Under the pieces are notes generated by a model, which worked only from the letters and a program-made list of their open reading frames with translations, did not search any database and was not told where the DNA came from. From positions 806,001-870,000 of the forward strand of contig JARGXX010000006.1 in the NCBI GenBank assembly GCA_030374765.1: a stretch of 64,000 nucleotides of DNA, read 5' to 3'. This document shows, piece after piece, positions 1 through 56,568 of this stretch (positions within the stretch are counted from its first letter, which is position 1; each line of letters starts with the position of its first letter). Origin of the DNA: Agarophyton chilense. Taxonomy: Eukaryota; Rhodophyta; Florideophyceae; Gracilariales; Gracilariaceae. Both the position numbers and the translations under genes were made by a program.

Positions 1-210
1 GGGTTGCGCGACGGTTGGTCGTCAGAGCCTTTTGATTGGCTCGGTGCCATTCGACGTGGGCCACATAAATGCGCGGGCGCCGGTTGCCACTCCGCAAGCG
101 GATATGAGGTGGCGCTTTAGGCACGCGCTAGCACTCTTTTGAGCTGTCCCCGACGGGTCTCACTCATTTCTTTCCCATTCCTGAGGGTTCCAGTGTCTCC
201 ATAGGAGTTC

Positions 211-1047: not shown

Positions 1048-4000
1048 CTAAGGTAGAGGTTTACGAACCCGATTGTCAAAGTCCTTCTTGTAGGCGCGTT
1101 GAGCTTTGTCCATTGCTTTCCGGGCTATCGGCACCATCTTCGTAAGCCACTCCTTCCAGGCTTCTCGGTACAATCCCGGTGACGGGTACGTCGACAGCGT
1201 CGGTTGAGCCTCGATAGCGACCGGCAGCGGTGTCCTCGACAGTACCAGTTCGAATGGGGATAAAGATGTAACCCGATGTACCTGGGTGTTGTATGCATAC
1301 GTGATAGCGTCTGTGTACAAGTCCCAATTTTTGGGGTGATCCGCAACATACGATCTCAAAGCGTTGAGTATCGTGCGGTTAAACCTCTCCACCTGGCCAT
1401 TCTCCTGAGGGTGATACGTAGTAACAAATAAATTCCTTACATCAAGGATTCGACATACATCCTGAAAGAACTTTGATGCGAATTGCCCTCCGTTGTCGGA
1501 TAACAACTGCACCGGCGGTCCATATACGAACACCCAATGGGTCACGAACGCTTGCGCGACGGTAGCGGCGGTGATCCGCTTCAGCGGCACAGTTCTCGTT
1601 AACTTAGAGAATCTGTCAGAAATGACAAGCAGATACCGATGACCTCGGGGCGTTCTGATAAACTCCCCTAGGATGTCTATGGCCACAAATTCGAGTGGAG
1701 CCCGTGCCGGGAACAGCGTCAACTTCTTAGAGTGCTGCCGAAGTTTGACGTCATTCTTGGCGCAATTGGCGCAGGCCCGTCTGACGGCGTAACAATCGAA
1801 TGCCATTGCCGGCCAGTGAAATTCCCTTCTCAACCTGAGGTACAGTTTTCTTCCCCCGGGGTGGGCGCCAACCTTCAAATAGTGAGTGAGGTGTAATACC
1901 CTCTGTTGTAGGGTGTGCGGCACCACTATCCTCGGGCGAGGTCCAACGGTCCTGATTAGGTAACCCTGATCGTCGTCCTCGAAAGGTAACTGAAATCCTC
2001 CGTTGAGGCGAGCCCGAATCCGTGTACAGAATGGGTCGAGCTGTTGCTCGCGTATCATCTCCTCTGGAGAGATAGGTATAAAAGAGCCGGTCGGCGAATC
2101 CAGACTCTCGTTGACGAGTATATCGTCACAAACATCATCCGTCAGCGGTTGAGCTCCTCCCTCGAGGTCCGATACCATAAAGCATGGGATGTCATCGTCC
2201 TCGTAGGGTTCCGTTTCCGCTGTTGTTCCCAAGCGGGATAGTGCATCAGCCTGAGTGTTCAGCTTCCCTTTCATGTACAGGATCTCAAAGTCGAATTCCG
2301 ACAGTCGGAGACGCCAGCGCATAAGGCGGCCCGACGGTTCGGAGATCTCCAGGAGCCAACGCAAGCATGCGTGGTCCGTATGGACTTTGAAACGAGTACC
2401 CATCAGATAGGGGCGAAGTGTGGCTAAGGCCCACACAACGGCTAAACATTCTTTCTCGGAGACCGAGTAGTTCCTTTCATGGACATTCAGGGAACGTGAC
2501 CAGTACACAATAGGGTGAAGTTCACCATCCTCAGAGGATTGGAACAGTGCACACCCTACTTGGTTTGCACTAGCATCAGTGTCCACTTCGTAAGGGAGCC
2601 CAGGATTGGGTAGAGCCAAGATTGGCGGTGATGTTACGGCATTCACCAGTGCCGTGAAGGCAGACTCTTCCGCGTCGCCAAAAGGTTCCAGTTCGACTGG
2701 TTGTCCCTTCGTCAGGAGCCTGTTGAGGGGGGTGGCAATATCCGCAAAGTTCGGGACGAATCGGAGATACACGTTACACAGACCTAAGAAGGATCGCAAC
2801 TCCGTTTGAGTTTTCGGGTGTTTTGCTTCCTTCAAGGATTTCACTCGTACTTCATCGATTGAAAGCTGTCCGGGACGGATGATATGACCCAGGTATTTAA
2901 CCGCATCGGTGAAAAACTCGCACTTCTTGAGTTTCAAGGTGATTCCCGCGTCGCGGAGTATCTTCATTACGTCCCTGACGTGTTCGAGGTGGTCATCCAG
3001 GTTGTTGGAGAAGACAATAATGTCGTCTAAATACACTAGACACGTCCTCCACTTGAAGGGAGCCAACAGAATGTCCATCGCCCGTTGAAACGTTGCGGGG
3101 GCATTTGTCAACCCAAAAGGCATCCTCCGGAATCGGAAAAGTCCTTGATGACACACGAAAGCCGTTTCGTCTCGATCTTCCCCCCTAATAGGGACTTGCC
3201 AGTAGCCCGAATTGGCGTCGAGGGTAGAGAAAACAGTAGCGCTCCCAAGGGAGTCGATGTATTCGTCCATCCGAGGGATCGGGTACACATCCTTAATGGT
3301 TACCTCGTTCAGGCGTCTGTAATCGATGCAGAAACGCCACGATCCATCCGGTTTCGGAACTAACACCACTGGTGAGGCCCAAACGGACTGGGCAGGTTCA
3401 ATTACGCCCGCTTTAAGCATCTTCTCCACCTGAGATTTCTCCTCTTCCCGAGCTTTCGGTCCAGCCCTGTAAGGGTGTTGGGCAATAGGCCGAGTGTTCG
3501 GTAACAAGTCGATGCGGTGTTCTGTAATCCCAATAGTTCCAAGGGAACCATCCCACATGGGGGTAAATTCACGAAGCATGTGCCTCAGCTTCTCCCGATG
3601 AGATGCGGGTACATGGTTGAGATCCCATTTTTCCAATTCCTGAACAGGATCCGTCTGGTCTGCTCCTGTGATAGGGGCCGTAACCTCCTGAGGTTTAAAG
3701 TGTTCAGCGTGTGGAGCTGCAGTCGTATGCTCACCGTCTTCCGCGATTTCGGCAGTGTCCTCCCCCTCCTTAGGGTCCGCCACACCAAGGAACTCTGCGA
3801 TAGAGATCTTTGTAGGTACGATAGCATGCAGGTGTGGAAGAACAGAACCCAGGATCTGGTGTTTGACCAAATGCTGCGTTGTCTTTCCAAAGTTGGCTAC
3901 CAAAACCTTGAAAGGTTTATCCGGTTCCACAGAGACAATCCCATTCGCAAGGGCGAGTTGACGCCGCGTATACAGAGACGGGTTCGGTTGTACCACATGC

Positions 4001-4743
4001 ACACCAATTTTCTTGGTAACAACTGTGAACCAAACCTGGGTTTCTGGCGGGATAGTTACTGACTTCGCAACCTTTACCCGTGTAGACACCGGGTCCTTTC
4101 TCACAGATTTCTGCGCGACGGGGAGAGGAACGCGTGTTCGCGCTGCTCCCTGTAAGGGTTTACGAACGATTGGGATCGTAGACCCGTCTTCGAGTTCCAC
4201 AGTTCTATTCCGGGGACGGATGGCTTCCACGAAGCGGTCGCAAAAGTCACAACCCAGTATGACTGGTGCTGCAAGTGACTTGCATACAATAAACTCCAGT
4301 TGAACGAGATAGGAGCCTAACCTCACCATGAGGGAAATTGTACCCAGTGTCCGTAGCGGGTTGTTGTTCGCATCGGCGATATCCAAACGTGGACCGGTAC
4401 AAACTTGAACCCGGAGCAGCGGGGGTAACAATTCAACATGAATTAAGTTAGGAGCGGCTCCTGTATCCAGGACAGATATTTGACGAACCATAAACTGGTT
4501 GGACAGGCCGAAGTCGGCGAATACTTTATAATTCCGCTTGGCCATTACCATAACTCGATCCGGAATACGGAGATTACGGGACCGTATCCACGGGCGACGG
4601 AGGACACTAAAGTATCCCGAGTTAACGTCGGTGTCAGCCGTTTTCCTTGAAAGGATTGTCACAGCTGGGGAGCGAAGCTGGAGCGCCTCGGGCGTCTTCA
4701 ACTCCGGCTCAGAAGACGCCCCTCCAGCAGGGGAGACTCCCAA
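1048..4743 (-). CDS. pol: Pol polyprotein of element 1 (protease, RT, RNase H, integrase)
   Basis: 1231 residues counted from the TTG at 4743; the frame is really open from about 4839, just inside gag. Visible landmarks are aspartic protease DTGAA at residues 93-97, reverse transcriptase about 440-650 with YLDD at 571-574, RNase H starting near DTDAS at 721, and integrase with an HHCC zinc region (about 954-994) and D1023, D1083, E1119 as the DDE triad. All catalytic motifs are intact. The frame ends at TAG 1048-1050, but the same frame continues without any other break into 211-1047, which carries the usual integrase tail. I take the TAG as a recent lesion, or possibly a leaky stop. Confidence 0.9.
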   Translation of the reverse strand: MGVSPAGGASSEPELKTPEALQLRSPAVTILSRKTADTDVNSGYFSVLRRPWIRSRNLRIPDRVMVMAKRNYKVFADFGLSNQFMVRQISVLDTGAAPNLIHVELLPPLLRVQVCTGPRLDIADANNNPLRTLGTISLMVRLGSYLVQLEFIVCKSLAAPVILGCDFCDRFVEAIRPRNRTVELEDGSTIPIVRKPLQGAARTRVPLPVAQKSVRKDPVSTRVKVAKSVTIPPETQVWFTVVTKKIGVHVVQPNPSLYTRRQLALANGIVSVEPDKPFKVLVANFGKTTQHLVKHQILGSVLPHLHAIVPTKISIAEFLGVADPKEGEDTAEIAEDGEHTTAAPHAEHFKPQEVTAPITGADQTDPVQELEKWDLNHVPASHREKLRHMLREFTPMWDGSLGTIGITEHRIDLLPNTRPIAQHPYRAGPKAREEEKSQVEKMLKAGVIEPAQSVWASPVVLVPKPDGSWRFCIDYRRLNEVTIKDVYPIPRMDEYIDSLGSATVFSTLDANSGYWQVPIRGEDRDETAFVCHQGLFRFRRMPFGLTNAPATFQRAMDILLAPFKWRTCLVYLDDIIVFSNNLDDHLEHVRDVMKILRDAGITLKLKKCEFFTDAVKYLGHIIRPGQLSIDEVRVKSLKEAKHPKTQTELRSFLGLCNVYLRFVPNFADIATPLNRLLTKGQPVELEPFGDAEESAFTALVNAVTSPPILALPNPGLPYEVDTDASANQVGCALFQSSEDGELHPIVYWSRSLNVHERNYSVSEKECLAVVWALATLRPYLMGTRFKVHTDHACLRWLLEISEPSGRLMRWRLRLSEFDFEILYMKGKLNTQADALSRLGTTAETEPYEDDDIPCFMVSDLEGGAQPLTDDVCDDILVNESLDSPTGSFIPISPEEMIREQQLDPFCTRIRARLNGGFQLPFEDDDQGYLIRTVGPRPRIVVPHTLQQRVLHLTHYLKVGAHPGGRKLYLRLRREFHWPAMAFDCYAVRRACANCAKNDVKLRQHSKKLTLFPARAPLEFVAIDILGEFIRTPRGHRYLLVISDRFSKLTRTVPLKRITAATVAQAFVTHWVFVYGPPVQLLSDNGGQFASKFFQDVCRILDVRNLFVTTYHPQENGQVERFNRTILNALRSYVADHPKNWDLYTDAITYAYNTQVHRVTSLSPFELVLSRTPLPVAIEAQPTLSTYPSPGLYREAWKEWLTKMVPIARKAMDKAQRAYKKDFDNRVRKPLP

Positions 4744-4826
4744 GTTTAGTTTTTCGAAGCGGACCCCACCAAATTCGGTGCAGCTGCCTCGAAGGAAACC
4801 GGTTGTTCCCCGTTCGCGAGTACAAG

Positions 4827-6776
4827 TTATGTATCCCTGTCAGTAAGGTGAGCTCGGAGTATCCTTTGTTCCTCATAGGACCTACTCAAGACTCGAGCTT
4901 TCTCCTCAGGGGTCAGAGCCTCGTACTGAGCGATAATTCGTGAACCCTCCCGCAGGGGAAATGTGCAGTCTGGTGCTTTGTGACCACGGAGGTAACACAA
5001 ATAGCAAATCAGCTCTGCCGGGTTCGGTTGTGGACCTGAATCCACGCGACGTGGTGCTGTATCCCTCCATCCGGGGCGAAAGAACCGAGCAGCGGTATTC
5101 GCAAAAGGTAGCGATGCGGCTGGCACCCGCCGTCCTTGGGTATAGAGCGCAGGGTCTTCATCCGTAGTCGGAGCGGATGTCGACGGCAACTCAGACGTAC
5201 CCATAGATTCGGGGTTACTTCCCATGAAGTGAATGTTATCATTGACCCCCACAGGGGCAGGGCCTCCTGCGAGTGACAAAGACGAGTTACCTCCATCGGC
5301 GAGGAGTGCACTTGTCGGCCGACTCTTTCGGTTCTGCCGGGCACGGAGAGTATCCCCCTCAGCCTGGGCGTACTGAACCAGTTCCAAGTAGGTCAGCTTG
5401 CGCTTCTCTTCCCGATGTCGGGCAACCAATGCCCTTATCGAGGGGTCCAAACCATCCACAAACATGGAGCATCTCTCGTAGGCGGGGAATACATTCCCGC
5501 ATCGATGAAACGCTTTATTCAAGCGAGTTGAATACACCGTTTCGGTTTTCATCGGCTTCTGCCGCGTATCCCTTAATGCAAGGATTGCTTCCTGAATCGC
5601 ATTTCCAGTAGCGTATGACCTCAAGAGGTACTGCACCGCTTCGGGCCAGCACGTGACTCCCCCTTCCGAGGCTCGGGATGATCCACGGACGGAGTTGAAC
5701 TGGTCTTCAACCATTCCCTTTAAGAAATAGGGTAATGCAAGATACGCTTGCGCTTCACTCATACCGAGGATGTCAGCCTCCTGGACGAACCTCGCAAGGA
5801 AATCGAGCACCAGAATTGGGTCTGTTCCTGTGAACTCCCTCTTCTGTAGGGTGATGCTCAGCCTTTTGATGTAGTCCTTGACCTTACCCGTTCCGCGGGA
5901 TGTTCGATCTCCCGATGGGTTATCCAACCGGTAATAGCGGTTCGATAGCAGCTTCCGATAGAGAGGATTCGTCGGCTTCAGCTCCCTTAATCCAAGGTGT
6001 TTCCTACCCTTCTTCCGGGTACGGATTGCCCCTTGAGAGGTGTAAGTAGCCTTCGACCGAGTCGCCCGGGATGACCGGCGTCCATCTTCACTATCCGAAG
6101 ATTCGGAGGACGAACTCGATGACGAGCGATTGGGATCGGAATCCGATAAATCCTCTTGGAGGTGAACCCTCTTCTTTGACTTGCGGCGGTCCCGTTTAGC
6201 GGAGCGGTGTTCTTCGTCTTCCGAAACGTCGGGTTTATCCTTCGAGGCTTCTGCGTCTCCGTCCATACGGATAATGGCCTCGAGGGTGTCCACCCGAGCT
6301 CGGAAGCGTTCCGCTTGCACGCGGTGTTCCTCCACGAGGCTCCGGTACTCCTGGATAAAGACCCCAGGGGTACCAAAGCTTTCCAAAAGGGAGTTCACAT
6401 CCCTCCTCAGGGTACGAAGGTCATCGGCGACTCCCCGCACCTGGGCGTCCTCCACCTTGAGGCGGAGGGTAGTAACCTCCTGCAGGAGCTCGATGTGAGC
6501 CGCGTTGGCGATATCAATTCGAGTCTCCAGGCGCTGTAATTCAGGGTCGGCCCGACTTCGGGGTGCTGCTGAGGGGGTCTCCACCACTGGAGCTGGGCCC
6601 ACAGCCACGACCTCTCGAGGACCTGAAACCACTGAGGGTGCTCTCCAAGTGTCCGGATCGATACCGGAATCGTTCCGACCTTCGGGAATAGAGCTCCTCG
6701 ACCTAGGCGGGGCCGGGGGCACTGAATCCGCTTGACGGTTCGATCCAGTCCTGGAACCACGGGTAGGCGGCGACAT
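4827..6776 (-). CDS. gag: Gag polyprotein of Ty3/gypsy element 1
   Basis: A 649-residue ORF. The N-terminal third is rich in Arg, Ser and charged residues, with a coiled-coil-like stretch and an acidic Ser/Asp/Glu block. The middle resembles a retrotransposon capsid. Residues 591-604 form a CCHC zinc knuckle (C-x2-C-x4-H-x4-C), the nucleic-acid-binding hallmark of Gag. ATG at 6774-6776 follows the PBS by about 200 nt. The stop codon TAA (4827-4829) lies inside the beginning of the open pol frame, which is read in the -1 frame with about 13 nt of overlap, so Pol is made either by -1 frameshifting or by restarting. No perfect X-XXY-YYZ slippery heptamer is evident. Confidence 0.85.
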   Translation of the reverse strand: MSPPTRGSRTGSNRQADSVPPAPPRSRSSIPEGRNDSGIDPDTWRAPSVVSGPREVVAVGPAPVVETPSAAPRSRADPELQRLETRIDIANAAHIELLQEVTTLRLKVEDAQVRGVADDLRTLRRDVNSLLESFGTPGVFIQEYRSLVEEHRVQAERFRARVDTLEAIIRMDGDAEASKDKPDVSEDEEHRSAKRDRRKSKKRVHLQEDLSDSDPNRSSSSSSSESSDSEDGRRSSRATRSKATYTSQGAIRTRKKGRKHLGLRELKPTNPLYRKLLSNRYYRLDNPSGDRTSRGTGKVKDYIKRLSITLQKREFTGTDPILVLDFLARFVQEADILGMSEAQAYLALPYFLKGMVEDQFNSVRGSSRASEGGVTCWPEAVQYLLRSYATGNAIQEAILALRDTRQKPMKTETVYSTRLNKAFHRCGNVFPAYERCSMFVDGLDPSIRALVARHREEKRKLTYLELVQYAQAEGDTLRARQNRKSRPTSALLADGGNSSLSLAGGPAPVGVNDNIHFMGSNPESMGTSELPSTSAPTTDEDPALYTQGRRVPAASLPFANTAARFFRPGWRDTAPRRVDSGPQPNPAELICYLCYLRGHKAPDCTFPLREGSRIIAQYEALTPEEKARVLSRSYEEQRILRAHLTDRDT

Positions 6777-6983
6777 GCTGCAGACACGACACCGACGATT
6801 CGGGGTAACAATGAAATTCGATCACGAGATTCCCGGAGAACGGATGACGTAACACAAAACAAAAATAAAAACCAATTCCACCCTTTCCAAAGGGGACCAC
6901 TACAACAAATCTTCACGACGGTGCTTCCTCTTCCAAGAGATATTCCAACACGTGAATGACCAACCCAAAAGTCCGAGAACGGA

Positions 6984-7001
6984 TTCTAAGTCGGGAGACC
7001 A
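6984..7001 (-). other. putative primer-binding site of element 1
   Basis: Two bases inside the LTR end (minus strand) there is a TGG followed by TCTCCCGACTTAG. This is the expected position and form (TGG pairing with the CCA end of a tRNA) for minus-strand priming. I did not identify which tRNA it matches. Confidence 0.6.
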
Positions 7002-7003
7002 CT

Positions 7004-7917
7004 TGTGGAGCAAAACCCGGCGACGGGAAGTGCTCTCAAGGTGTTCGAAGCCTTGCTCCCTGGGGGAGGCAGACTCAGAGACAGAGCCCTCCGTTCCACC
7101 CGTAGTGTGGGGTGTAACTCCCACGGGGGATTCCGGCAGTACCGACGGAGGTGAAGGGTAGAAACCGTTGGATCGGGAATGGGTATGGGTATCCCAAAGA
7201 ATGGGGGAAAATCCGGCGAAGAGGAAAAACGGGGCGAGGGTCGGGCACTAACAGGCACCGGACCCGAGAACCAGAAAAGGGGCGAAACAACAAAAGAAAC
7301 CCAATACAGGGGCGAAAACCTGTCCTCGAAAGGAAACACAAAAAGAACGCAACAAGTAAGCAGAACCCCCACGGGGTATCGTGCACGCAGGTCGTCTGAG
7401 CGGTCCCAAGGGGGTGGTTGCACGGATCCCAAACGTGGGCACTCTCCAAGTGGAGTCGTGTCCCTACGCAGGCGTTGCTAACCAGAGCCCGTTCCGGGTT
7501 GTAAGGCCGAAACGATGGCGACGAAGAACCTCTAAAGGTATCGAAGACCAACCTTGGTTACCATTTACTCTGAGCTTCGGACTGTCAGATCTCATCTCCC
7601 TAAGTAGGGCCCACTAACTAAACTCTACAGTAGTGCACACCTGCTCAGGGCCATACACGTGGAGATCCCACTGCCAGGGCCCAAAAGTCCAACGTTCTAC
7701 AAATATCCGAAAATCGGTGCCAAAATTAAGCCACGTGTATCACGGGGCCAATCCAACCATGGGCCATCCGAATTTTCCCTTATAGGCGAAATATAACCAG
7801 AAAACAGTGCCACCTCAGCACACCTTAGAAGGGATCATAATCATAACCCTCGGAGGGTTCAATCCTCATCCTATGAGTTACATCTTCAAGTATCCCCTGA
7901 CTGGGCGTTGCTCTACA
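7004..7917 (-). repeat. 5' LTR of element 1 (914 bp)
   Basis: On the minus strand it starts TGTAGAGC at 7917 and ends CACA at 7004. Its limits come from comparison with the near-identical, inverted 914-bp solo LTR at 36530-37443: similarity stops at the same bases in both. A TATA-like TATAAGG sits at 7784-7778 (minus strand). The five bases outside the LTR, ctttg at 7918-7922, are the candidate target duplication, but the partner copy is outside the window. ORFs of 148-158 codons inside the LTR are shared by both copies and are probably chance. Confidence 0.88.
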
Positions 7918-33381: not shown

Positions 33382-33717
33382 CTAAAAAATATTATTATTC
33401 TCATTTATGACGCCGGCACGATGAAGACGACTTTTATAATGAACTCGGAGATCGTGGGCTTTGGGGAACTTGATATCGAATACACGGCACCAAACGTCGG
33501 TTTCTTTGTAGAAGGCGCGTCGTAGTGCGTTTTGGTGCTTTCTACCGCCTTTGGGTACCTCTACTTGGCGCTGGCTCTGCAAGTTGATGCTACAAACGGC
33601 AAAGCGCTTAAGGGAGAGTTTAAGAGATGGAGGACGGTGGCGACGCTTCCCACGCTGAGTAACGACCCGAAGGATGTGAAAGGCGCGCGGGTTGCTAAAG
33701 GATTCGCTAGAAGGCAA
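33382..33717 (-). pseudogene. zinc-finger-like ORF truncated near the LTR insertion
   Basis: 111 codons. The C-terminal third reads like one C2H2 finger of the 'DIKFPKAHDLRVHYKSRLH' kind, with two His in place, but the second Cys of the pair is replaced (W-C-R-V-F). The upstream side ends about 45 bp from the LTR of element 2 at 33762, and no matching upstream exon is seen beyond the element at 45540. It is probably a fragment of a host gene damaged before or by the insertion. Confidence 0.4.
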
Positions 33718-33761
33718 AAAGTAGGTGAGGGGTGTGGCTTCCTTGGTGACGCTGACAACTT

Positions 33762-34229
33762 CCTATACCGTGTAGGTGAAAGATGGTAGGCGTCGACGCG
33801 CGGGAGAGCCTGTGTCGTAGTTGAGAAACGATGAACCAAAAGGTATAGTCGTGACCCAAGTGGTGCCTGTCTTTATCAGATTAGGATGGGGGAGGTGCAG
33901 TTCCCTATATGCATTGGACTGCACTCTCCAGATCACCCGGGAGGTGCCAGCAAGGCACGGTCTCTGACCTAGTGTCAGAGAACTGGCCAACACTGGCTAC
34001 AGTGCCAGGTGGCCACTCAACTACTGTACTAAAATACATCTAATTACAATTACTATTTCTCATAATTACTCCACAAGAAGGTACATGTCAACACTACACG
34101 TGGCTGACAACACCTAGATGGTAGCTCGCTCGGAGCTGCATGGCCGATGATCCCTCGCATCCATCACCTACAAGGTCAGTGTAGTATATCGACAACCTCA
34201 AAGGTCAAACTTTCCGCCACTATACGACA
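33762..34229 (-). repeat. 3' LTR of element 2 (468 bp)
   Basis: Directly repeated at 45072-45539. On the minus strand it begins TGTCGTATAGTGG right after a purine tract. The other end is less certain: both copies end ...CACGGTATAGG, which lacks the canonical CA. Confidence 0.85.
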
Positions 34230-34241
34230 AACCCCCTTCCT
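34230..34241 (-). other. polypurine tract of element 2
   Basis: AGGAAGGGGGTT on the minus strand abuts the 3' LTR start TGTCG, the standard position for the plus-strand primer. Confidence 0.7.
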
Positions 34242-34419
34242 ATCCTTGAGACACGCCCCGTGTCTCCTTTTATCAACCCATCGAGGTGTAGCGAGCGACA
34301 GCGGCGCGGGCATCGAAGTGGTGTCTGTGCGCGACGCACGATCCTTTGAGGTTCAGAACTCGACGCCAGTGTTGGTTGGGGAGGGCGCGCGACGACGTCG
34401 GCGCACGAATTGAGCGACA

Positions 34420-35250
34420 ACCATTGAGGTAGGGACTTTCATGAGGGCAATGCAGTGTCAATAGCGCGTTCGCGGACACCTTTTCGGTAGTGGACCTGCT
34501 TGCTTGCGGTTCTGCTTCGGCATAGCCCACTGTCTAACCAAGTTGGTATCTCACCCTTCCTGGTTACTCAAACTTCAGTTCCCTCCTAGGTCCCTGCGCA
34601 GCGCCGTCCCGCCTGCTCGTTCCCACGGCTCGACAACCATTCAGGTAGTGCTGCCCTTATTTGGCGGCGTCGCGACCGTAAATGTTTGTCCGACTTTTCC
34701 CTGAAGGTTTCCTGGCTTCTCGACCTTTCAGGTTTCGTCTACCTTGTAAGGGTTGACTCGTGGCGCCAATGGGGCCTGAGCCTACGTCGATACAACCATT
34801 GAGGTGTTGGCCTGGGTCCGTGGTGGAAGCTTCCGGTTGTGAGACCTTATTGGTGTTGAGCGGCCCCGTCCGTAATCACGCGACCTTTTTCCGGTTTTGC
34901 ATTCCGGTTTACCCTCAAGACAATGACAGGATCGCGCCGCCTCCGCGCAAGCGTTCGAACCCATTCGGTACCACGTCGGTGCACCTCGCGCCGTATCGTG
35001 GATTCGTCACCTATACCTCGAAGGGGTGGGTCGTCCCCACAAGCAGCACCAGCGCTCGAGAGACGTGAGATGCTGGTTACCATTGAGGTTGAAGAAGTCG
35101 GAGATTCCGAGGGGATTGATACCCCTGCCGTTATGCCTTTAAGGTAGGATTGGTCCCGTTCCACGATACCTCAAAGGTCTGGACCCGCTCGCGACCGCAC
35201 GCCGGCCACTGTTGTACCCGAAAGGTCAGTGTCGGTACTACCGGAAAGGT
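34420..35250. repeat. array of ACC-N5-GGT interrupted palindromes (element 2)
   Basis: Exact 11-bp ACC-N5-GGT sites start at 34420, 34478, 34537, 34636, 34723, 34795, 34844, 34959, 34970, 35079, 35168, 35216 and 35240. Two more at 34166 and 34195 lie inside the LTR. Near-matches (CCC or TCC for ACC, spacer 4, 6 or 7) fill many gaps, so the sites often fall at about 27-30 nt or multiples. The spacer favours A/T with a final A (ATTGA, TCAAA, TTTCA). The region is not coding for any recognised protein. Confidence 0.75.
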
Positions 35251-38038
35251 TGGATCCGTTGGCCGTCTCCTCAGAACGGACCGAGGAGGCTCTACTTCAG
35301 AAGGATGAATACTCGCTGGTGTTCACCGCGGCGGTGGAGGTCGAGTCATCACCTCGTTCGTCGGGTCGAGCTACGGCCTTCCCAACCATGTCAGGTAGCG
35401 GCCCATCTCGTGGCCGTGGACGCGGTGGTATTACCAAGAGGGTGACTCGCTCGACTTCGCGAACGCCTACCAACATTGGGTTTCGCAGCATGCCTATCCC
35501 TGCGACTCAGTTCTCCCCTGGGACTCCGGCTGACCCGTACCAAAGCAGTGGTGGACTTCGTTCGACGATTCAAACCAATTGGGCTCACAATCTTGCGTTC
35601 GGTGCGGCGAACCGGACGACGAGTCAGTATGGACCTTTTGGTATTACCTTCGACCAGGTGACGAACAATGACCTGTTGAAGCACAATTGGCCTGTGGCGG
35701 TGGGGAATTCGTCCCTGCCAGCAGCTCTTACCAGACCACAATTTGATACCTACTTGGGTTTGTCCCGTTGGGACTGCGAGAGCCTTCGCTCCGTTCCATT
35801 GCTTTTGAAGAAACGGGACCAAGATTCTCAACCTCGTCAGGGTCGACTGGGATGTTACCAGAGTCGGCAGCGTCATACACCTTTGAGGTATTTCATTCCA
35901 CCGATATATCCGAGCGACTTGCCGTATGTGCGCATCGAACCGGAGCTGGATTATTACCGTAGATTTGTGGTGCAAGTTTGCCAGTACCCGTCTATTCCGG
36001 AGACTTACCTTCCGGTTTCAACTGACTTGGTTTCCCTGGATCAGCCTTTCACCATTATCAATTGGGCTGACCGTAGTAGGTGGGGCGAGGATGCAGCGAC
36101 GGAGAGTCGCGTTCGCACTCGCTACTCGTACACTCGCGTCATGCATATGTTTCATAACGTCGAGTACTTCTCACAACCTACGAAGGACAGACGCGATTGG
36201 AACGTGCTTCGACCAGAGTGGTAGGAGTCCTATGAGGTTCCGTTATCACTGAGCGTGCCCACTCCGCCGGTCTTGGCGTACTTCGGGAGTCAGATTTCCC
36301 GGAACCTAGAGCGGTATTACCTCATTTGGTCGATTGACCTCTCGGAGTGAACCGTATTGGTTGCCATCCTGGCTCTGGAGGCCGCCCGTTACGGTATCGA
36401 TTGGGATTGTCGCAATCCTGATTCTGACATATACCGAAATGGTGTTCAACCTGTAGGTCGCATCTTCTTCATACCTCCGAAGGTTGCTCAGGATATTTCC
36501 CTATTTGGTTACGAGAACATTGTAGAGGGTGTAGAGCAACGCCCATTCAGGGAATACTTGAAGATGCAACTCATAGAATGAGGATTGAACCCTCCGAGGG
36601 TTATGATTATGATCCCCTCTAAGGTGTGCTGAGGTGGCACTGTTTTCTGGTTATATTTCGCCTATAAGGGAAAATTCGGATGGCCCATGGTTGGATTGGC
36701 CCCGTGATACACGTGGCTTAATTTTGGCACCGATTTTCGGATATTTGTAGAACGTTGGACTTTTGGGCCCTGACAGTTGGATCTCCACGTGTATGGCCCT
36801 GAGCAGGTGTGCACTACTGTAGAGTTTAGTTAGTGGGCCCTACCTAGGGAGCTGAGATCTGACAGTCCGAAGCTCAAAGTAAATGGTAACCAAGGTTGGT
36901 CTTCGATACCTTTAGAGGTTCTTCGTCGCCATCGTTTCGGCCTTACAACCCGGAACGGGCTCTGGTTAGCAACGGCTGCGTAGGGACACGACTCCACTTG
37001 GAGAGTGCCCACGTTTGGGTTCCGTGCAACCACCCCCTTGGGACCGCTCAGACGACCTGCGTGCACGATACCCCGTGGGGGTTCTGCTTACTTGTTGCGT
37101 GCTTTTTGTGTTTCCTTTCGAGGACAGGTTTTCGCCCCTGTATTGGGTTTCTTTTGTTGTTTCGCCCCTTTTCTGGTTCTCGGGTCCGGTGCCTGTTAGT
37201 GCCCGACCCTCGCCCCGTTTTTCCTCTTCGCCGGATTTTCCCCCATTCTTTGGGATACCCATACCCATTCCCGATCCAACGGTTTCTACCCCTCACCTTC
37301 GTCGGTACTGCCGGAATCCCCCGTGGGAGTTACACCCCACACTACGGGTGGAACGGAGGGCTCTGTCTCTGAGTCTGCCTCCCCCAGGGAGCAAGGCTTC
37401 GAACACCTTGAGAGCACTTCCCGTCGCCGGGTTTTGCTTCACAGAGGGGACCGATTATACCGTGAAGTATTTGGACTTGTATCTCGATCAGAGAAAGAAT
37501 TACCACTGGGGTTCCCATCAAGGTTGGGAGGCTTTTGAACCGCAACTTGGAAGATTGTGCCTTGCCACGCCCATTACTATCCTGGGGAGCCTCCTGTTTA
37601 TGGAGCTCCCGCGAGCCCCGAACCTTATGACGGTACTGTAAAGACACCAGTTGGCCGTTATGCTGGTCCCTTCCCGTCCGGTCGGTTTGCTGGCTCGAAT
37701 TCGCCAGTCTTGCGTCACTAACTTTCAGAGGGCTGTGCCTACCTCCGTGGTTGCTGCATTAACGCGAGTTCCGGAATCAGTTCCAGGTGGACATGTACCA
37801 ACTGCCCACCCGTCAGGTTGCCAATCTGGCAAGCGTCTCTGCTGCTGCACCATCTGATCCTTTGACGGATCCCCTTCTAGGTGCAAACTTGAACCCTGCA
37901 GTTTTGCCACCTGCTGCGGCGGTTCCTTTCGTTCATCCTCTTTTGGTTTCGACTCTTCTCCCCAGTGCCGGGGCTACCACTCCTTCGCTACCTCTTAACT
38001 CGATGGCTCCTAGTATTTCCGCAGGTTTTCCTCCGTGA
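35229..38038 (+). pseudogene. antisense ORF of element 2, interrupted by a solo LTR
   Basis: On the strand opposite gag-pol, 35229-36224 is open for 331 codons (a later in-frame ATG at 35388 starts an Arg/Gly-rich segment). The same frame continues past TAG (36222) and TGA (36348) to 36529, where the 914-bp solo LTR begins. Deleting the LTR and one copy of the GAGGG duplication rejoins the frame at 37449 for another about 60 codons. A further frame change leads to a Pro/Ala-rich end at 37787-38038. No known domain was recognised. Antisense ORFs between integrase and 3' LTR are known in some plant Ty3/gypsy elements, so this is likely an extra gene of the element. Confidence 0.6.
36530..37443 (+). 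repeat. solo LTR of element family 1, with GAGGG target duplication
   Basis: 914 bp, starting TGTAGAGC and ending CACA, near-identical and inverted relative to the LTR at 7004-7917. GAGGG at 36525-36529 is repeated at 37444-37448, an exact 5-bp target duplication. It arose by insertion of a full element 1 copy into element 2 followed by LTR-LTR recombination. A TATAAGG lies at 36663-36669. Confidence 0.92.
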
Positions 38039-38369
38039 GTAGTCACTAACACGGGTCCTCCTGATTCCATTGCTCCTAACCCGACAGGTCCTTCTTAAAG
38101 TAAATTGTTGTCTCTTCTTGTCTCTTCTCCTGTTACATTTGGTTGTTCTTTCGTGTCCTCCCTTATAGGTAATCTGACACGCATATGCGTCCACCTTCTG
38201 CGGAAAAAGACGTTTTCTCTCCACCTTCCTTAGGCCTGAGTACCACGAAGGTCTAAGGTTCGCCGTCTGCAGGCATCGGCTCCTTGCGACAGCGCCAATA
38301 CCTAATACGGAAGTGTGGGGGTATTGCAGTTGGGGGTTCGAGGGTGTCCCCTTCTGGGCCCCAGCCGTA

Positions 38370-38951
38370 CTACCTGACGGTGTACTTCAGGCCATTGTAG
38401 GTTCGCGTGTGGCCCACAAGACGGTCAACGGGAAATGTCTCTGCGGTTTGGTCCTGATCTTTCGGGGGAACGCCACCTCGAGAGTTCATATGATCCGAGT
38501 TGGGAGCTTCGTTTGTGGGCGTCGGGTCGGGAGCTCCCGCTGTTACCGTGTGAGGTTCCATTTCCTTCCCTGTTAGAGGGTTGTAATCCGGATCATTCCG
38601 TTTTAGTTCATCATACACCTCAATTGGGGTGGGGTTCGCCGAGGGTCGAGTGCGCAGAGCTACCGCTCTGGGCTCTCGGGCTGAGGTGCCTGCCTCCATG
38701 CGATGTTGAACCGTTTCAGGTGCTACCGTAATACGGTCAAATGATATCGTATTCGGTATTCCATCTTGGTCAACCGCAACGGTGTGGTCTGATGCGTTCA
38801 ATACCTTATAAGGCCCCACTGATTTGGGTAAATGCTTCGAATTGATATCTCTGTCAATAGCTTCATCGTATGCTTCATCACCCGGTCGTGGTCTTTTACC
38901 TGAAGGTGGGTTTTCTATGTAGACATATTGTCCCGAAGATACAGAGACCAC
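38370..38951 (-). pseudogene. integrase tail of element 2 Pol
   Basis: 193 codons in frame with the integrase. The first half has a 'KSVGPYKVLNASDHTVAVD' GPY/F-type module; the second half is Pro/Glu/Thr-rich, as in the tail of element 1. Confidence 0.65.
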
Positions 38952-38969
38952 TTTGGTTACCCTACGGTC

Positions 38970-39884
38970 TTAGTCGGCCTTGTACCGCCTCTGGGCTGCA
39001 GTGAGGCGGCTCTCTGCATATTTGAGAGCCCTCCTTAACCTCACAAGGGTATTCCGCTCGACCTGGGCAGGGTTCAGTGTGCCAGCTGCCGTGCTGGTGG
39101 TATGATCTCCCTGCACTACAATACCTGGGGGGTGTCGCGAAAGAACCAAATGAAAGGGAGTGGTCTGCGTTGAGGGGCGTACCTGAAGGTTATAGGAGTA
39201 GGTGAGCGGTTGCACCAGCTCATCCCACCCAGTTTGGTGCTCTTCCGTATAGTGTCGTACCCTTGATACCAAGATGTGGTTAAATCGCTCGCCTTGTCCG
39301 TTCGTCTGCGGGTGGTAGACAGTAGTGAAATAGTGCTTTATACCCAAGAGGGTACAGACTGCTTCGAAGAACTTCCATGCCAAGGTTGAACCATTATCGG
39401 TAAGTAGGTACAGTGGTGCACCATACGGGTAGACCCAATTGTTGAGGAACGCGATCTCCAGCGTGGTTGACTTCGTCTCCTTTAAAGGTATCGCTCTCGT
39501 GAGCTTCGAGAACCAGTCAGTGATCACTAGAATGTGCTGATGCCCATTCTTGGTTTTGGGAAGTGGTCCTAGAAGGTTTATCGCAACAAACTCCAGTGGA
39601 CCCGCTGCTGGGAACAGCTTGAGGTACTTTCGATTCTTTCGAATACCACCGCGGGTACGAACACAAGATTCGCATTGACCTACAAAGTGGTAGACATCAT
39701 GGGCCATATGAGGCCAATAGGACCGTTGCCTCAAGGTGTAATACATCCTGGTGGCACCGGGGTGTCCCGATAGTTGCGGGTAGTGCGCGAGATACAAGAC
39801 TTTCGGGCGCAGTGCCTTCGGAACCACCTTTGGAAGGCTACCATCCAAGGTTGACCTTCTCACGATGTACCCATTGTGTTTCAC
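38970..39884 (-). pseudogene. integrase of element 2 Pol
   Basis: 304 codons. The zinc-binding HHCC region (LAHYPQLSGHPG ... QCESC) is intact. The DDE core has Asn in place of the first Asp ('FVAINLLGPL' against 'FVAIDILGEF' in element 1), while the second Asp ('LTDNG') and the Glu ('QGERF') remain. Loss of the first catalytic Asp should abolish strand transfer. It ends in TAA, and the frame continues into 38951-38370. Confidence 0.8.
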
Positions 39885-39929
39885 ATCGGACGGTGATACT
39901 TTGAAACCAATTTGGTAAGTAAGGGTTCT

Positions 39930-41363
39930 TCAGTGCGGATCTTGGGCCTGTTCTCGCAGAAATTCCTCTCGGGTTACGGGCATGACGTTCGTTTCCTCTA
40001 GGGCCGGTATCTGCGTTGCCATGTCAGTGTTCCGCAAAGCGCCTTCTTCAGATAAGTCCCAACATCCATCTATGTGTTCGCCGGTACCATTTTGGTTTGA
40101 TGACACCAAAAAGAAAGGGATATCATCGTCCCCGGGTTCTTTCTCTAACCCTGAGATTTTTGAGCGTGACATAGCGTCAGCTATGTTGTGCTTTATACCT
40201 GGACGGTACTGTACGTCGTATTCAAACTCCGAGAGTCTCAACCTCCAACGGGCAAGTCTACCAGACGCATATGCGAGTCCGAGGATCCACCTTAAGGCGT
40301 CGTGGTCCGTGCGCAACGTAAAGCGCTCACCATAAAGGTATGCACGGAGCATCAACATGCTCCACACTACTGCTAGACATTCTTTTTCGGTTACCGTGTA
40401 GTTCTGCTCCGCCTCAATCATAGTGCGGCTCCAGTATCCTATAGGTAATTTGTCTCCGGTGTGCTGCTCCTGCATGAGACCACAACCAATTTGGGCATGG
40501 GATGCATCTGTACCCAGCATGTATGGTAGACCTGTTTTCGGTAATGCTAAGATCGGCGGTGACAACAGCGCTCGTTTCAATTCCTCAAAGGTGTCCATTT
40601 CTTCGTTCGATAGATTCTCAAACCGTTCAGGTTCACCTTTTTGGAGCTTCTTGTTGAGGGGAGCCGCTATTTTCGCGAATCCCTTCACGAACCGACGATA
40701 GACGTTACATAAACCTATAAAGGATCGTACGTCTGTCTGGGATCTTGGCAACTTGACCTCCTGTACGGCGCTAATGTTGCTCGGTGCAACCTCTAGGTTA
40801 CCAGGGCCTATGATGTGGCCCAAGTATTCAACCGTTCTGATAAAGAAGACGCATTTGCGTAGCTTCAGCGTCACCCCCGCCTCAGCTAGGAGGGTTAGTA
40901 CGGTGCGTACGTGTGCAAAATGCTCTTCTGCAGATTTGGAATAGATGATTACATCATCGATGTTTACCAAGGCGGTTGTCCATTTAAACTTCGAAAGGAT
41001 GAAGTCCAGCGCCCTTTGAAAAGTGGCTGGAGCATTGCACAACCCGAAAGGCATCCGTGTGATGTAAAACAAACCTGCATGGCACGTGAAGGTCGTTTTG
41101 TCTCTATCTTCCTCACCTACGGGTACCTGCCAATACCCACAATTGGCATCCAACGTGGTAAATATCTGCGCATCTCCCAAGGAGTCGATGCACTCATCCA
41201 TTATAGGTATCGGGTACGAATCCCTGATGGTCACGCTATTGAGCCTCCTGTACTCCACACAGAACCTCATATGGTTATCCTCTTTCTTCTGAACCAGATC
41301 CACGAGACTAGCCCAATCTGAGTTGGCTGGTTCAATAACACCTTCTTGGATCATTCGCTCCAC
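39930..41363 (-). pseudogene. reverse transcriptase/RNase H of element 2 Pol
   Basis: 477 codons open. RT motifs 'YRRLNSVTIRDSYPIP', 'FTTLDANCGYWQVP', 'MPFGLCNAPATFQ' and RNase H 'GTDASHAQIGC' ... 'TDHDALRW' are present. The active-site YxDD is NIDD here (Tyr to Asn, a single base change), unlike YLDD in element 1, which should impair polymerisation. It ends in TGA, after which the same frame continues into the integrase piece at 39884. Confidence 0.8.
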
Positions 41364-41402
41364 TTCTTTGAGTTCTACATCTCTCGCCTTCTGATCTGTA
41401 CG

Positions 41403-41995
41403 TTATGGTTGCTGATAAATCGGCTTCGATTCAAGGAGGAGCTCGATGCGATGCTGTGTGGCCTTAATTTGGCCCAGATGGCCTGACCACATGGTTTCGA
41501 ACTCCTCCAGAAGGTCCATAATACGTCCCCGCAGTTGGCCGTTTTCTTCACTGATCTGGACTATATCTTGCCATTGTCTCTCAGGGTCAGGTTCTTCTTC
41601 ATTGTCTACCGATGCCTTATCGGTTAGCTTCGCTTCCAAGTTGGTATTTATCGATACCTTTGTGGTTGTGGACGCATTTGCGCACCCCCTTCCTTCCCGA
41701 AGGCGACCTCGCTGAGATCAGTGTGAGCTACGGTGAAGACCCCTTGTGGTGCCGGTAGTGCTATGCCAACATTGGTATTTTTCGGCAACTTCACGTCGTG
41801 ACTGCTGAACTTGCTGAGACACACCTTAAAGGGTTGATTTGGGATGTTGTCGACAATCCCGTTGGCCATCAAAGTGAGGTGTCGATGTGCTAACCTCGGA
41901 TGGTTTTGTAGTATAACCAGACCGGGGGTCGCACACGACACCGGTACCAGTATTTGGTGCATTGGCGGGATAAAAACCTGTTTGGTAATGCGCAC
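41403..41995 (-). pseudogene. protease-RT linker of element 2 Pol, interrupted
   Basis: Two ORF pieces (41995-41648, 115 codons; 41639-41403, 78 codons) align in order with the linker of element 1 Pol. Shared landmarks are 'LMANGIV', 'PFKV' and then the conserved 'TQHRIELL' before the RT domain. A stop closes each piece. Confidence 0.65.
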
Positions 41996-42065
41996 TTTGT
42001 TGGAGACCGTTTCGGTGGATATCGTCTTCTTCGGTTTGACGAACCATCTCCGTTTGGTTTCCGTA

Positions 42066-42560
42066 TTACCTTAAAATGGCAATTCGTCCCCCCTGACATA
42101 GGGCGACGGTGTGGGAACCAGGAAGGATTGCTTTGACATGTCTGTCAATGAATTTCGTACCTAGAAGGCAGTCTGTTGGTAAACGGTTGACAACAAAGAA
42201 TTGCAGTCTTACCTTGAGGTGTCCGAGCTGCACCACAGTGGTGATCATACCTCGAAGGTTTAATGGGCGCTCATTTGCATCCACCAGCGGGTTGTTGTCG
42301 GGAGATCGGCTCAAGTTCCAAAGTACGGCCTCAGGTATGACGCGGGAGTTCAGCACGTTTGGGCTGGCCCCCGTATCCAACACGCAGTTGACCGGAACCG
42401 CAAGGCGATCGGAGAAACACATTGAAGCACGTACTTTATAGTTGTTGTACTTCATATGACAAACCGGAACTGGTTGTGACGTGTTCTCTTCCACCTTCAA
42501 GGTTCTGGGTATCGATTGGCCTTCCAATTGCAGATTGGATTCGGCTATTACGCCATCCAT
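42066..42560 (-). pseudogene. aspartic protease region of element 2 Pol
   Basis: 164 codons with VLDTGASPN (active-site DTG, intact) and a later 'LGTKFIDRHVKAI' strand that corresponds to the same place in element 1. ATG 42560 lies in the overlap with gag. The following part of Pol continues in broken pieces at 41995-41648 and 41639-41403. Confidence 0.75.
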
Positions 42561-43126
42561 TCGGTATTTTCTTCCTGTACGGGAGGGGTTGAGTCCAAGT
42601 TTGGTGTTTCCTCGATGGTATTGACCTGAACTGGTGTACGGGGTTGGAACCTATTTGGTGCTTGCGTTAAAGACCCAGAGAGGCGTTGGTGATTCTGCAT
42701 GCGAGCCTGAATCAACTGGTCTCTCATCCCTGGAGGTAAGTTAGTGCAATTGTTTGCCAAATGGTCTGTCGCAAGACGGAACCAGCGAACGAAGCCTCCT
42801 GTTTGGGGGTCTCGCGTTACCATTGAGGGGGGCTTCGAAACCTGGTTGGTAGGAGCAGTGGCGTAGGATGTGGGTGGCAAGTTATGGGAGCTCGCTCCCT
42901 GCATCCTCTGCGAGCTCATCGCACTTGGCGGCGATGGTACCGAGTTTGGTATATGCGTTGACGACCAATTTCCTACCGTCGAAGGTTTCGAGAACCGCCC
43001 CTGGGTCGCTACCGAGTGGATAGCGGTTACTGTAGGTACTTCGATGTGCGAGCTACCCTCTGAGGTTGTTGTGTCTTCAATTTCCAAGACCGACATTTTC
43101 GGTTTATCCGTCGAGGTTGGAGGCAC
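42548..43126 (-). pseudogene. Gag C-terminal part, element 2
   Basis: 192 codons, in frame with the preceding gag piece across the TAA at 43157. Ser/Thr/Pro/Gln-rich. A short LATDHLANNC segment near the middle is the only place reminiscent of a nucleocapsid, without a full zinc knuckle. Its stop at 42548-42550 overlaps the start of the protease frame by 13 nt, in the same -1 relation as in element 1. Confidence 0.65.
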
Positions 43127-43156
43127 GGCTAGTCTCTTTCCCAGCCGAAGGGTATC

Positions 43157-44919
43157 TTAAAGTCCCTGGGAGTACCGAGCCAGTCCATTGTAGTCTACCT
43201 TTCGGTTGGTGGCCAGGTAATTGCGTACCTTGGAACGGGTCGCTTTGTCGACATTGTCGGCAAATAGCGACTTTAACCTAGAGGTTGTGAACACATTACC
43301 ACAACGGGCTGCCAGATTCCAAAGCGCGAGCGAAAACTCCGATTCGGCTTGCCCAGACCTTTCATGGTAAGCGAGGACTTTCGAGTAATCCTCATGGATA
43401 ACCTCATCGGTGGCGTATGTTTCCAAAAGAAAATTGACCACCTCTGGGTATAACTCCAACATCTCTGTGCCATCCTCACCCATCCCTAAGGTATTGCCGC
43501 GGAGCTCACCCTGCAGCAAGTAGTGTGCCTGTCCTCTAAGGTAAAACTGAAATAGCCACATAGCAGCGCCCTCGGAAAAATCATTTTGGTCACATGCAAT
43601 CTTGAACTTCTGTGGAAACTCAATCACCGCAATAGGATCCCTACCTGTGAAGGTTGTGTCACCCATTTGGAAGCTGAGCTTCTTGTGGTGCTTAGTAATC
43701 TTCTGAGCGACCTCTTGCGTGTATTCAGAAGACTTGTTGATCAAACGATAAGTCCTGTAATCAACCGCTTTGGTGAACATATCGTTCAACGGTTGGTGCA
43801 CCTCCAGGTCTATTTCGGTGTCCGACTCAGAGTCGGGCGACTCATTGTATCTCTTTTTACCCTTTCGGTTCTTATTCGACGACTTCTTCGTCGAGCTGTT
43901 CGGTTTCTTCTTCTTCTTACCTTTACGGTCATCATCCGACGATGAACTCGTATCGGAACTGGAGTCTGACGAGTCGGGGCCTGTATCATCCTCTCGATTC
44001 TTTCCCCTCTTCGTCCTCCGCTTCTTCCCTTTGCGGTTTCTTCGTCGCTCATCCAAAGAGTCAGACGAATCGTCCTTGGGACCACCTACATGGGTATCCT
44101 TTTGAACGAGACCAGTAAGTGGTGGCAGATAGATGTCTTGAGGATCTACCTTCCCCGGGACCTCTTGACTTTGCCTTGGACCTTGTAGGTGCTCACTATC
44201 AGTAGGTAAGTGTTTGAAATGGGTGGAATGACCCATTTGGAACCCTTGTGGTATGCGCTTTGCGACGTTCACCTGTGTAGGTCGGGATCCTGCGAATTCC
44301 TCGGAAACCCAAAGGTCCTGCACGGCACGGTAAACATGCTCCCTAGCATCTGTGAGGAGATACTGTTTTACCATTTCAGGTATCCTGTCAGATAGCTCTT
44401 AAGCTGCTCGGTCAACCACAATACGGGTAAATTCATCGACGTCCATTGAGGGCGGAACCATCCGGGTATCCGACTTCTCCTTTAAGGTTAATGCATCCTC
44501 GACCGCGAGGGTGACGAGCACTGTCCCTCGCTCTTCGAGCTGAGGCTATAGCTCCTCCGCTGCAACCTCAATTGGTAATTCCCTTTGAGGTTCCGTTGCC
44601 ATAGGCGGCAGACCATGTACCTTTACGGTTTTGTACCGAGGGTGCCGGAGCAGCTCCTCAGGGTTTTCCAGAATCTTCAGAGCCCATGGGGCTCCTTCAG
44701 GACCTTTATGGCTTGGCGGGGCGCTCGCACGAGGCGAATTCCTTTTAGGTCGTTCCATTTGTGACCAATAGTGGTATCCTGTATTGCTTTGCGGGATTTC
44801 CTGAAACCAAATAGGTGTACGAGCGTCCAATCCTTCTCAGAATCTCGTGTGAACCGTGAAGGTACGACGAAACCTAAAAATACATTCGAAGTCAGGAGAC
44901 CAAAATGTCGTACAATCAC
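43157..44919 (-). pseudogene. gag: Gag, N-terminal and central part, element 2
   Basis: The longest piece is 44374-43157 (405 codons), with an acidic/basic low-complexity middle (Lys-, Ser- and Asp-rich) and then a capsid-like helical region. In the same frame upstream, the sequence stays protein-like through TAA and TAG codons up to about 44730. A frame change then leads into the piece starting at 44919. The piece ends in TAA at 43157-43159 and the same frame continues at 43126-42548. All three of these stops could be CAA or CAG codons changed by C-to-T. No CCHC knuckle was seen, unlike element 1. Confidence 0.75.
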
Positions 44920-44948
44920 CTCTGGGGTATGCTATTGTCTTGTCTCGG

Positions 44949-44989
44949 GAGCGTTGTGACGCTCAACCGTAGGGAGCGTGTTGACGCTC
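44949..44989. repeat. tandem hairpins in the leader of element 2
   Basis: GAGCGT-4 nt-ACGCTC occurs twice, 25 nt apart (44949-44964 and 44974-44989), in the untranslated leader between the 5' LTR and gag. Paired leader hairpins are typical of RNA dimerisation or packaging signals; that role is inferred. Confidence 0.5.
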
Positions 44990-45071
44990 AACCTTAGAAG
45001 GTGGAAGTAGTAAACCTCGATGGTAACAGGGCACCTTGAAAACCCGCAGGGGCAAACGGCGGGTCAACTAG

Positions 45072-45539
45072 CCTATACCGTGTAGGTGAAAGATGGTAGG
45101 GGTCGACGCGCGGGAAAGCCTGTGTCGTAGTTGAGAAACGATGAACCAAAAGGTATAGTCGTGACCCAAGTGGTGCCTGACTTTATCAGATTAGGGTGGG
45201 GGAGGTGCAGTTCCCTATTTGCAGTGGACTGCACTCTCCAGATCACCCGGGAGGTGCCACCAAGGCACGGTCTCTGACCTAGTGTCAGAAAACTGGCCAA
45301 CACTGGCTACAGTGCCAGATGGCCACTCAACTACTGCACTAAAAAATATATAATTACAATTACTATTTCTCACAATTACTCCACAAGAAGGTACATGTCA
45401 ACACTACACGTGGCTGACAACACCTAGATGGTAGCTCGCCCGGAGCTGCATGGCCGATAATCCCTCGCATCCATCACATATAAGTTCATTGCAGTATATC
45501 GACAACCTCAAAGGTCAAACCTTGCGCCACTATACGACA
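45072..45539 (-). repeat. 5' LTR of element 2 (468 bp)
   Basis: Same length as the 3' LTR. The differences are all substitutions or balanced changes, so the two LTRs have diverged since insertion. Beyond it (45540 onward) lies non-element DNA. Confidence 0.85.
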
Positions 45540-52870: not shown

Positions 52871-52968
52871 TCTTTTTCATTTTCACTTTTCTACTGCCGA
52901 TCCGGATTGCATCTTCATCAAGCTCTTTTTGGCACAACATGAAGTAAACTACTCGTTCCTCTACGGCC

Positions 52969-56533: not shown

Positions 56534-56568
56534 TTTTCACATTGGATACATTCTAGAGCGATCGTTCT

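Follow-up and report, generated by a model that had tools for sequence, protein, structure and literature searches.

The window, the whole stretch of 64,000 nucleotides that was analysed, contains a Ty3/gypsy LTR retrotransposon (the focal element, family B) whose sense strand is the minus strand. Protease, reverse transcriptase-RNase H and then integrase follow one another in minus-strand order between LTRs, and short target duplications were found as 5-bp duplications at other family B copies. The two LTRs of the focal element are identical at 445 of 468 positions, and the 3' LTR is without 166 bp of the outer end that is present in other copies. A dense array of interrupted palindromes at 34166..35250 had been placed in a retroelement by the sequence-only reading. 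This placement holds, with the correction that the element is a Ty3/gypsy with minus-strand sense; the stretch therefore begins within the 3' LTR, at its inner end, continues through the 3' non-coding region and reaches into the first part of an antisense gene (ASP) region. The parts of the element are listed below, with the strand where a feature has one; the spacer is the number of bases between ACC and GGT.

33762..34229, minus strand: 3' LTR, truncated, with 6 exact ACC-N5-GGT
34166..35250: stretch of the original finding, with 15 exact ACC-N5-GGT dyads
34230..34921: 3' non-coding region, with 7 sites at spacer 5 and 4 at spacers 6-7
34923..38370 (ends approximate), plus strand: ASP region, with 17 exact sites, those of the nested LTR not counted
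36530..37443: solo LTR from Ty3 family A, 914 bp, nested inside the ASP region and foreign to family B
38371..44398: gag-pol half, with 24 sites at spacer 5 and 69 at spacers 4-7
38970..39884, minus strand: integrase (H2C2 zinc binding and rve core), by domain match
39930..41363, minus strand: reverse transcriptase and RNase H, by domain match
42066..42560, minus strand: gag-type aspartyl protease, by domain match
43157..44374, minus strand: gag-like ORF, by similarity to the family A gag ORF
44399..44905: 5' untranslated region, with 5 sites at spacer 5
44906..45539, minus strand: 5' LTR of family B, full length (634 bp), with 7 exact ACC-N5-GGT

The gag-like ORF at 43157..44374 had no match in a Pfam scan and shares 30% identity over 217 aa with a stretch of the family A gag ORF. 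The nested family A solo LTR is flanked by a 5-bp target duplication (GAGGG). Elsewhere in the genome, match positions show an apparent case of self-nesting, with one family B copy inside another of opposite orientation (L019, G000:C3:53780-64737). The window also holds a tandem repeat at 55331-55815 (264-bp unit, 1.8 copies) and, at ~51800-55850, unclassified repeated DNA that is common to the random stretches L039 and L040 (86-89% identity, longer matches).

All 15 exact ACC-N5-GGT sites that had been claimed for 34166..35250 are present (starts 34166 to 35240), and the further sites named in the same reading are exact matches as well (40086, 40197, 40329, 41976, 42006, 42249 and 42493). Over the whole window 77 sites stand against 12.1 expected, and none of 100 dinucleotide shuffles reached this number (top value 21), which bears out the claim of a density beyond chance. 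The excess lies in the element: positions 33701-45600 hold 66 sites (7.9 expected per offset) and the remainder of the window 11 (8.7 expected). With the nested LTR removed, the element again gave 66 sites, compared with a mean of 3.5 and a maximum of 10 in 500 block Markov-1 sequences. Chance or base composition as the cause is thus rejected by the shuffles and the Markov-1 controls. Among all triplet pairs at spacers 0-16 in 33701-45600, ACC/GGT at spacer 5 had the highest z (20.7). The near-matches in spacer length that had been reported are raised too (19, 35 and 19 sites at spacers 4, 6 and 7), and no other spacer within 0 to 56 yielded more than 17 pairs. In 20 random 10-kb genome stretches we counted 54 spacer-5 sites (~39 expected), 7 of them in one stray family B LTR; with a total this near expectation, a genome-wide motif is rejected. 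Nor did window positions 8001-33000 and 46001-64000 show an excess of CC/GG dyads (0.6-1.2 times expectation).

The spacer is non-random, as had been noticed: 212 of 330 spacer bases are A/T (48.4% for the element) and 26 of the 66 spacers end in A. Of 65 centre bases of spacer-5 sites, read on the plus strand, 4 are C and 19 are G, an asymmetry absent at other spacers. The sequence flanking the sites is nearly flat. When the dyad is reduced to CC-Nk-GG, enrichment in family B is at k 5, and variants of the outer base are partly enriched (CCC-GGT, 12 vs 4.4; ACC-GGA, 18 vs 6.4; ACC-GGG, 14 vs 4.2).

The spacing of 27-30 nt that the sequence-only reading had described was not recovered. Within 34166..35250 only one of 14 gaps between spacer-5 sites measured 26-31 nt, and one of 19 when spacers 4-7 were pooled; a 28-nt period is not present. 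The suggestion that the array is the relic of a short tandem repeat is not supported either, given the lack of a period, the flat flanks, the lack of a tandem array in the stretch and the turnover of sites between family D copies described below. The pooled sites are more even than random in both element parts (CV 0.62 and 0.70; 5% limits 0.76 and 0.83), where part of the evenness is trivial since the null permits overlapping sites. Spacer-5 sites alone were not even at 33762-36529 (CV 0.87, within 0.70-1.23) and were borderline at 37445-45539 (CV 0.77; limit 0.76). The same two parts have more site distances of 80-87 nt than gap-order shuffles do (25 vs 19.4, a number reached by 2.0% of the shuffles), an observation made post hoc.

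That coding constraint does not explain the pattern had likewise been proposed, and our controls agree. Synonymous-codon shuffles of gag-pol, which covered six ORF pieces of the window copy, gave a mean of 16.1 and a maximum of 25 sites (n=500), compared with 56 observed; at the control spacers 12-15, 9 sites were observed vs 10.0. For the ASP frame of copy L009 the shuffles gave 6.4 (maximum 13, n=300) and the observed number was 31. Coding constraint as the cause is therefore rejected. In the LTRs, the 3' non-coding region and the 5' untranslated region together, the 35 sites at spacers 4-7 include 25 with spacer 5. This dominance is relaxed in gag-pol, with 14, 24, 21 and 10 sites at spacers 4, 5, 6 and 7, which looks like a compromise between the best site and the demands of the protein sequence.

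The assembly (79.8 Mb, 135 contigs) has 9 matches to light-harvesting proteins and 13 to phycobilisome linkers, the latter on 7 contigs, which indicates a red alga. We searched it for further copies; of 818 first-look candidates 40 were scored and every one matched, so there are at least 40 family B matches. Twenty copies were compared, namely the window copy and 19 others, including two near-identical pairs. Each carries 16-25 spacer-5 sites per 4.2 kb (1.8-2.6 expected), and the expectation that other copies keep the sites was thus confirmed. The companion idea that sites are more conserved than their flanks was not: single-copy changes per column amounted to 0.54 in half-sites, 0.38 in spacers and 0.45 elsewhere (18 of the 20 copies, two near-identical ones being left out). 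Differences between copies are mostly confined to a single copy, and half-sites are hit as often as the rest. Shared changes stood at 5 of 270 vs 75 of 2160 columns, numbers too small for a test. Selection on individual B copies left no sign in the single-copy change rates. Since the array is common to the copies and single-copy changes are unbiased, we conclude that the array is ancestral and then decayed neutrally. Such decay is compatible with selection, or with none, in the active lineage; it neither proves nor excludes it.

A second Ty3 element, of family A, is cut by the window start and has the following parts.

1..7917, minus strand: family A Ty3 element, with an inverted-repeat array of its own
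214-1047, minus strand: ORF3, in sense orientation, without Pfam match
1051-4839, minus strand: pol, a long open frame
4830-6821, minus strand: gag ORF, a long open frame
7003-7917, minus strand: LTR, with 7 sites XCCY-N4-Y'GGX'

Its unit is a 4-bp inverted repeat with covarying pairs. Window positions 1-7000 hold 33 sites XCCY-N4-Y'GGX', and codon shuffles of the three ORFs gave 3.9 (maximum 11, n=500) where 31 were observed. CC-Nk-GG is enriched at k 6-10 in family A and at k 3-4 in family D; GG-Nk-CC is hardly enriched. Among 98 CC-N6-GG sites of family A, 57 have a Watson-Crick inner pair (24.9 expected) and 50 a Watson-Crick outer pair (27.4 expected), and the sites use all four pair types with loops that are nearly all different. 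Spacing is more even than random here too (CV 0.69; 5-95% range, 0.74-1.25).

Two family D relatives (L034 and L039, 78% identity) have 30 k 3-4 sites in common, of 55 and 71, respectively. At k 8-15, 33 of 84 (L034) and 33 of 93 (L039) are common. Hence the sites turn over while their density is kept. Base-level conservation is weak, at 0.845 and 0.787 for half-sites compared with 0.780 and 0.776 for CC/GG that belong to no site. Families E and F show a weak dyad, with maximum z of 4.7 (L022) and 2.5 (L024) in E and of 4.3 (L026), 3.2 (L034) and 1.7 (L033) in F; the reverse dyad is likewise raised in L022, L024 and L026. No array was present in two stretches of Copia, 4.0 and 2.5 kb long (maximum z 1.7 and 1.9), and a general property of retroelements is not supported by them. 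The comparison with other retroelements that had been proposed was therefore split: Copia was without an array, as the claim would have it, but other Ty3 families carry dyads of a different form. Each of families A, B and D has its own CC...GG dyad geometry, and E and F have theirs weakly.

We then considered whether the dyads behave as half-sites or as hairpins. In family B the outer pairs at spacer 5 are A-T in 66 sites, T-A in 2, G-C in 7 and C-G in 1. The outer A and T are near independent (A-T, 66 vs ~62 expected by arithmetic from the margins), and all Watson-Crick outer pairs together number 76 vs 66.8 expected. Core variants at spacer 5 were not enriched, neither those with G-U (2 and 4 seen; 3.4 and 3.4 expected) nor those with A-C (5 and 2; 4.5 and 3.6). 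Outer-base independence and the lack of G-U core enrichment are as for half-site contacts. Just outside ACC/GGT, complementary bases are rarer than expected (z -3.6) and identical ones commoner (z +4.3). The bases adjoining ACC and GGT are identical in 57 of 134 cases (33762-45539). In the 4-bp arms of family A, counts with one G-U vs one A-C were 68/65, 55/80 and 66/65 at loops 3, 4 and 5. The hairpin-based RNA feature offered by the sequence-only reading thus keeps in its favour the covariation in family A and the strand asymmetry of the B centre base, and has against it the lack of a G-U preference and the like folding of the two strands reported below. Pairing and folding appear to fit recognition at the level of DNA somewhat better than at the level of RNA.

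An open frame runs along the family B element in antisense, from ~34923 to ~38370. The window copy has it only in pieces, the longest of which spans 35148-36224 from stop to stop; in copy L009/L061 it stays open over 876 codons. Families A (L025, 520 aa), D (L038, 463 aa) and F (L026, 611 aa) likewise have an antisense ORF that lies downstream of integrase or ORF3, so that this placement is established in four families (A, B, D and F); family E (L022/L024) has a homologue by protein similarity alone. The proteins are linked by matches between B and D (25.6% over 133 aa, E 5e-9), B and E (L022; 35% over 92 aa, E 1e-6), A and E (42% over 402 aa, E 8e-78) and A and F (35% over 470 aa, E 4e-60), and direct comparison of A with D gave no match. 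For the family F gene we found at least 72 matches (1811 candidates), of which 14 of 72 are stop-free, query included. Between L022 and L024 (289 codons) dN was 0.33 and dS 1.44; the low dN/dS is confined to this one pair, other pairs having pN/pS of 0.59-0.76 with dS near or past saturation.

Comparison of ASP with the PDB gave no relative; Pfam scans gave chance-level matches only, none above the cut-off, and TRP28 (PF04195) was absent among the Pfam matches of the scanned ASPs, also at E up to 1. Profiles of the Plant mobile domain (PF10536) and searches for Zn2Cys6 proteins had no match in the genome, where control genomes gave none either; among viral contigs no relative was confirmed. 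A single-sequence structure model (pLDDT 30) was worthless. Within the ASP genes, the dyads are weak in two families: the family E frame had no stem excess (1 vs 0.9) and a raised CC-N5..8-GG count (108 vs 81.5, maximum 107), and in family D the dyad count was 33 vs 24.2 (maximum 39).

Our best explanation, which we advance tentatively and at less than even confidence, is that the dyads are family-specific self-recognition sites read by a putative element-encoded protein, most likely the antisense ASP. A dispersed recognition array specific for one family would pervade the Ty3 element, its unit in family B being two facing ACC half-sites across ~5 bp. A dimer encoded by the element itself would read many of these dyads along the element's length, and the reader would most likely be the orphan ASP from the opposite strand, between integrase and the 3' LTR. 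A high density of sites would let the reader tell DNA (or RNA) of its own family from other sequence, and the outcome might be, e.g., sustained expression, marking or packaging of the element's own DNA or RNA. The array of binding sites for a dimeric protein that the sequence-only reading had listed among its options is kept as the best account of family B, with a putative binding protein. A protein that reads the code is the simplest mechanism in view of VANC, which according to PMC5735166 reads its arrays. The comparison set includes no Ty3 element lacking ASP, and Gag or another protein therefore fits equally. As ASP had no Pfam match above the cut-off and no PDB match, nucleic-acid binding by it is not implied by homology. 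Several observations count against the best explanation: covariation of inner and outer pairs in family A is unlike fixed half-sites, avoided complementarity outside ACC/GGT in B goes beyond a simple dimer, the spacer centre of B at spacer 5 is asymmetric between strands, family E combines an ASP homologue with a weak array, and the D dyad is weak inside ASP. In its favour are the enrichment and geometry of the sites, the codon-shuffle results, the half-site behaviour of the B dyad, the differing dyads of sister families, the ASP homologues in other Ty3 families, the two Copia stretches without arrays and, within the limits given above, the dN/dS of L022/L024 and the evenness of pooled sites.

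The main rival is that Gag reads a code in RNA. Each site would be a small stem-loop in the genomic RNA, and the sites would serve as dispersed packaging or assembly signals recognised by Gag of the same family. RNA viruses have such dispersed signals, many short stem-loops over the RNA genome that are specific for one coat protein; to our knowledge none are known in LTR retrotransposons, and a search of literature titles and abstract openings, covering few subscription journals, retrieved no such arrays in these elements. Covarying inner and outer pairs of four types around varied loops in family A are what this rival would predict, and the centres are of loop size (5 in B, 3-4 in D and 3-5 for the 4-bp arms of A). 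The sites span the entire element, the sense-strand centre base in B is almost never G at spacer 5 (4 of 65), and a CCHC knuckle is encoded in the family A gag ORF; neither the B copy of the window nor the D stretches gave a match to such a knuckle. RNA of A and B folds better than shuffles by 0.8-1.1 kcal/mol per 60 nt, but the sense and antisense strands do so alike, and the D sense strand folds no better than shuffles (+0.17 and -0.36 per 60 nt, errors 0.2). Further, G-U is not preferred in the A arms, the B outer bases are near independent, and stems measure only 3 bp in B and 2 bp in D. Unlike the viral signals, then, the arrays have no strand-wide or G-U signature and stems of 2-4 bp. 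We regard recognition by Gag as a minority possibility.

A host DNA-binding protein, whether it serves the element as a transcription factor or silences it, appears unlikely as the reader: dyad symmetry and a preferred spacer would suit any dimer on double-stranded DNA, but the geometry differs by Ty3 family, coding DNA is filled with sites, and window positions 8001-33000 and 46001-64000 are without excess. Quite unlikely, too, is a purely mutational origin, in which template switching during reverse transcription or replication perfects imperfect palindromes without any function. It would account for the Watson-Crick arms of varied sequence and without G-U bias in family A. It does not account for the sequence specificity of the B outer pairs, for the preponderance of CC-left over GG-left arms in A (81 vs 13 at loop 4) or for the two Copia stretches without an array, and arm extension, the outcome of copying, is avoided in B. 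Finally, the dyad could be a preferred integration target with the 5-bp duplication at its centre, as the target duplication is just as long as the preferred spacer. Eight insertions with both flanks readable were inspected by eye, of which four had an exact 5-bp duplication, one had one with a single mismatch and three had none. None of the five duplications was flanked by ACC before and GGT after, and the family A LTR nested in the window did not insert into such a site either. Integration into the dyad is therefore not supported and highly improbable.

VANDALs are DNA transposons. In Arabidopsis, VANC proteins bind dense YAGTATTAY arrays of VANDAL elements and act in anti-silencing (PMC5735166). 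As described there, a dense short motif marks one family, relatives have other motifs, and the motif is rare elsewhere; family B likewise has a dense family-specific array that is rare elsewhere. For VANDALs the same source reports that the element's own protein binds the motif and that density gives specificity, a role that ASP may play here. It describes the VANDAL motif as mainly non-coding, in one orientation and spread by tandem repeats, whereas family B is an LTR retrotransposon whose palindromic dyads occupy coding as well as non-coding parts, with tandem-repeat origin not seen (no tandem array in the stretch, no 28-nt period, and 69 gag-pol sites at spacers 4-7). A second likeness is to Retand Ty3/gypsy elements of flowering plants, in which antisense ORFs between pol and the 3' LTR mostly have a TRP28 domain and the antisense proteins are predicted to bind DNA (PMC11963269). 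The focal element shares the antisense ORF between pol and the 3' LTR and, with it, a long region that holds a gene for a possible DNA-binding protein. Its host is a red alga, ASPs had no TRP28 match, and the description of Retand elements in PMC11963269 mentions tandem repeats but not dyad arrays.

Self-recognition by transposons and its divergence between families are understood in few cases. In this one genome, families with different dyads (over a span of >10 kb in the focal one) and diverged ASPs provide natural protein-code pairs for direct testing. A strong nucleotide-level signal over codon choice across a whole retroelement also bears on element dating and on dN/dS work. More broadly, it is possible, if doubtful, that red-algal Ty3 elements write a family-specific palindromic address code over their full length that would be read by a co-diverging orphan antisense ASP for self/non-self recognition. 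The arrays and the opposite-strand gene suggest a labelling of the element's DNA or RNA, to be recognised by a protein of its own.
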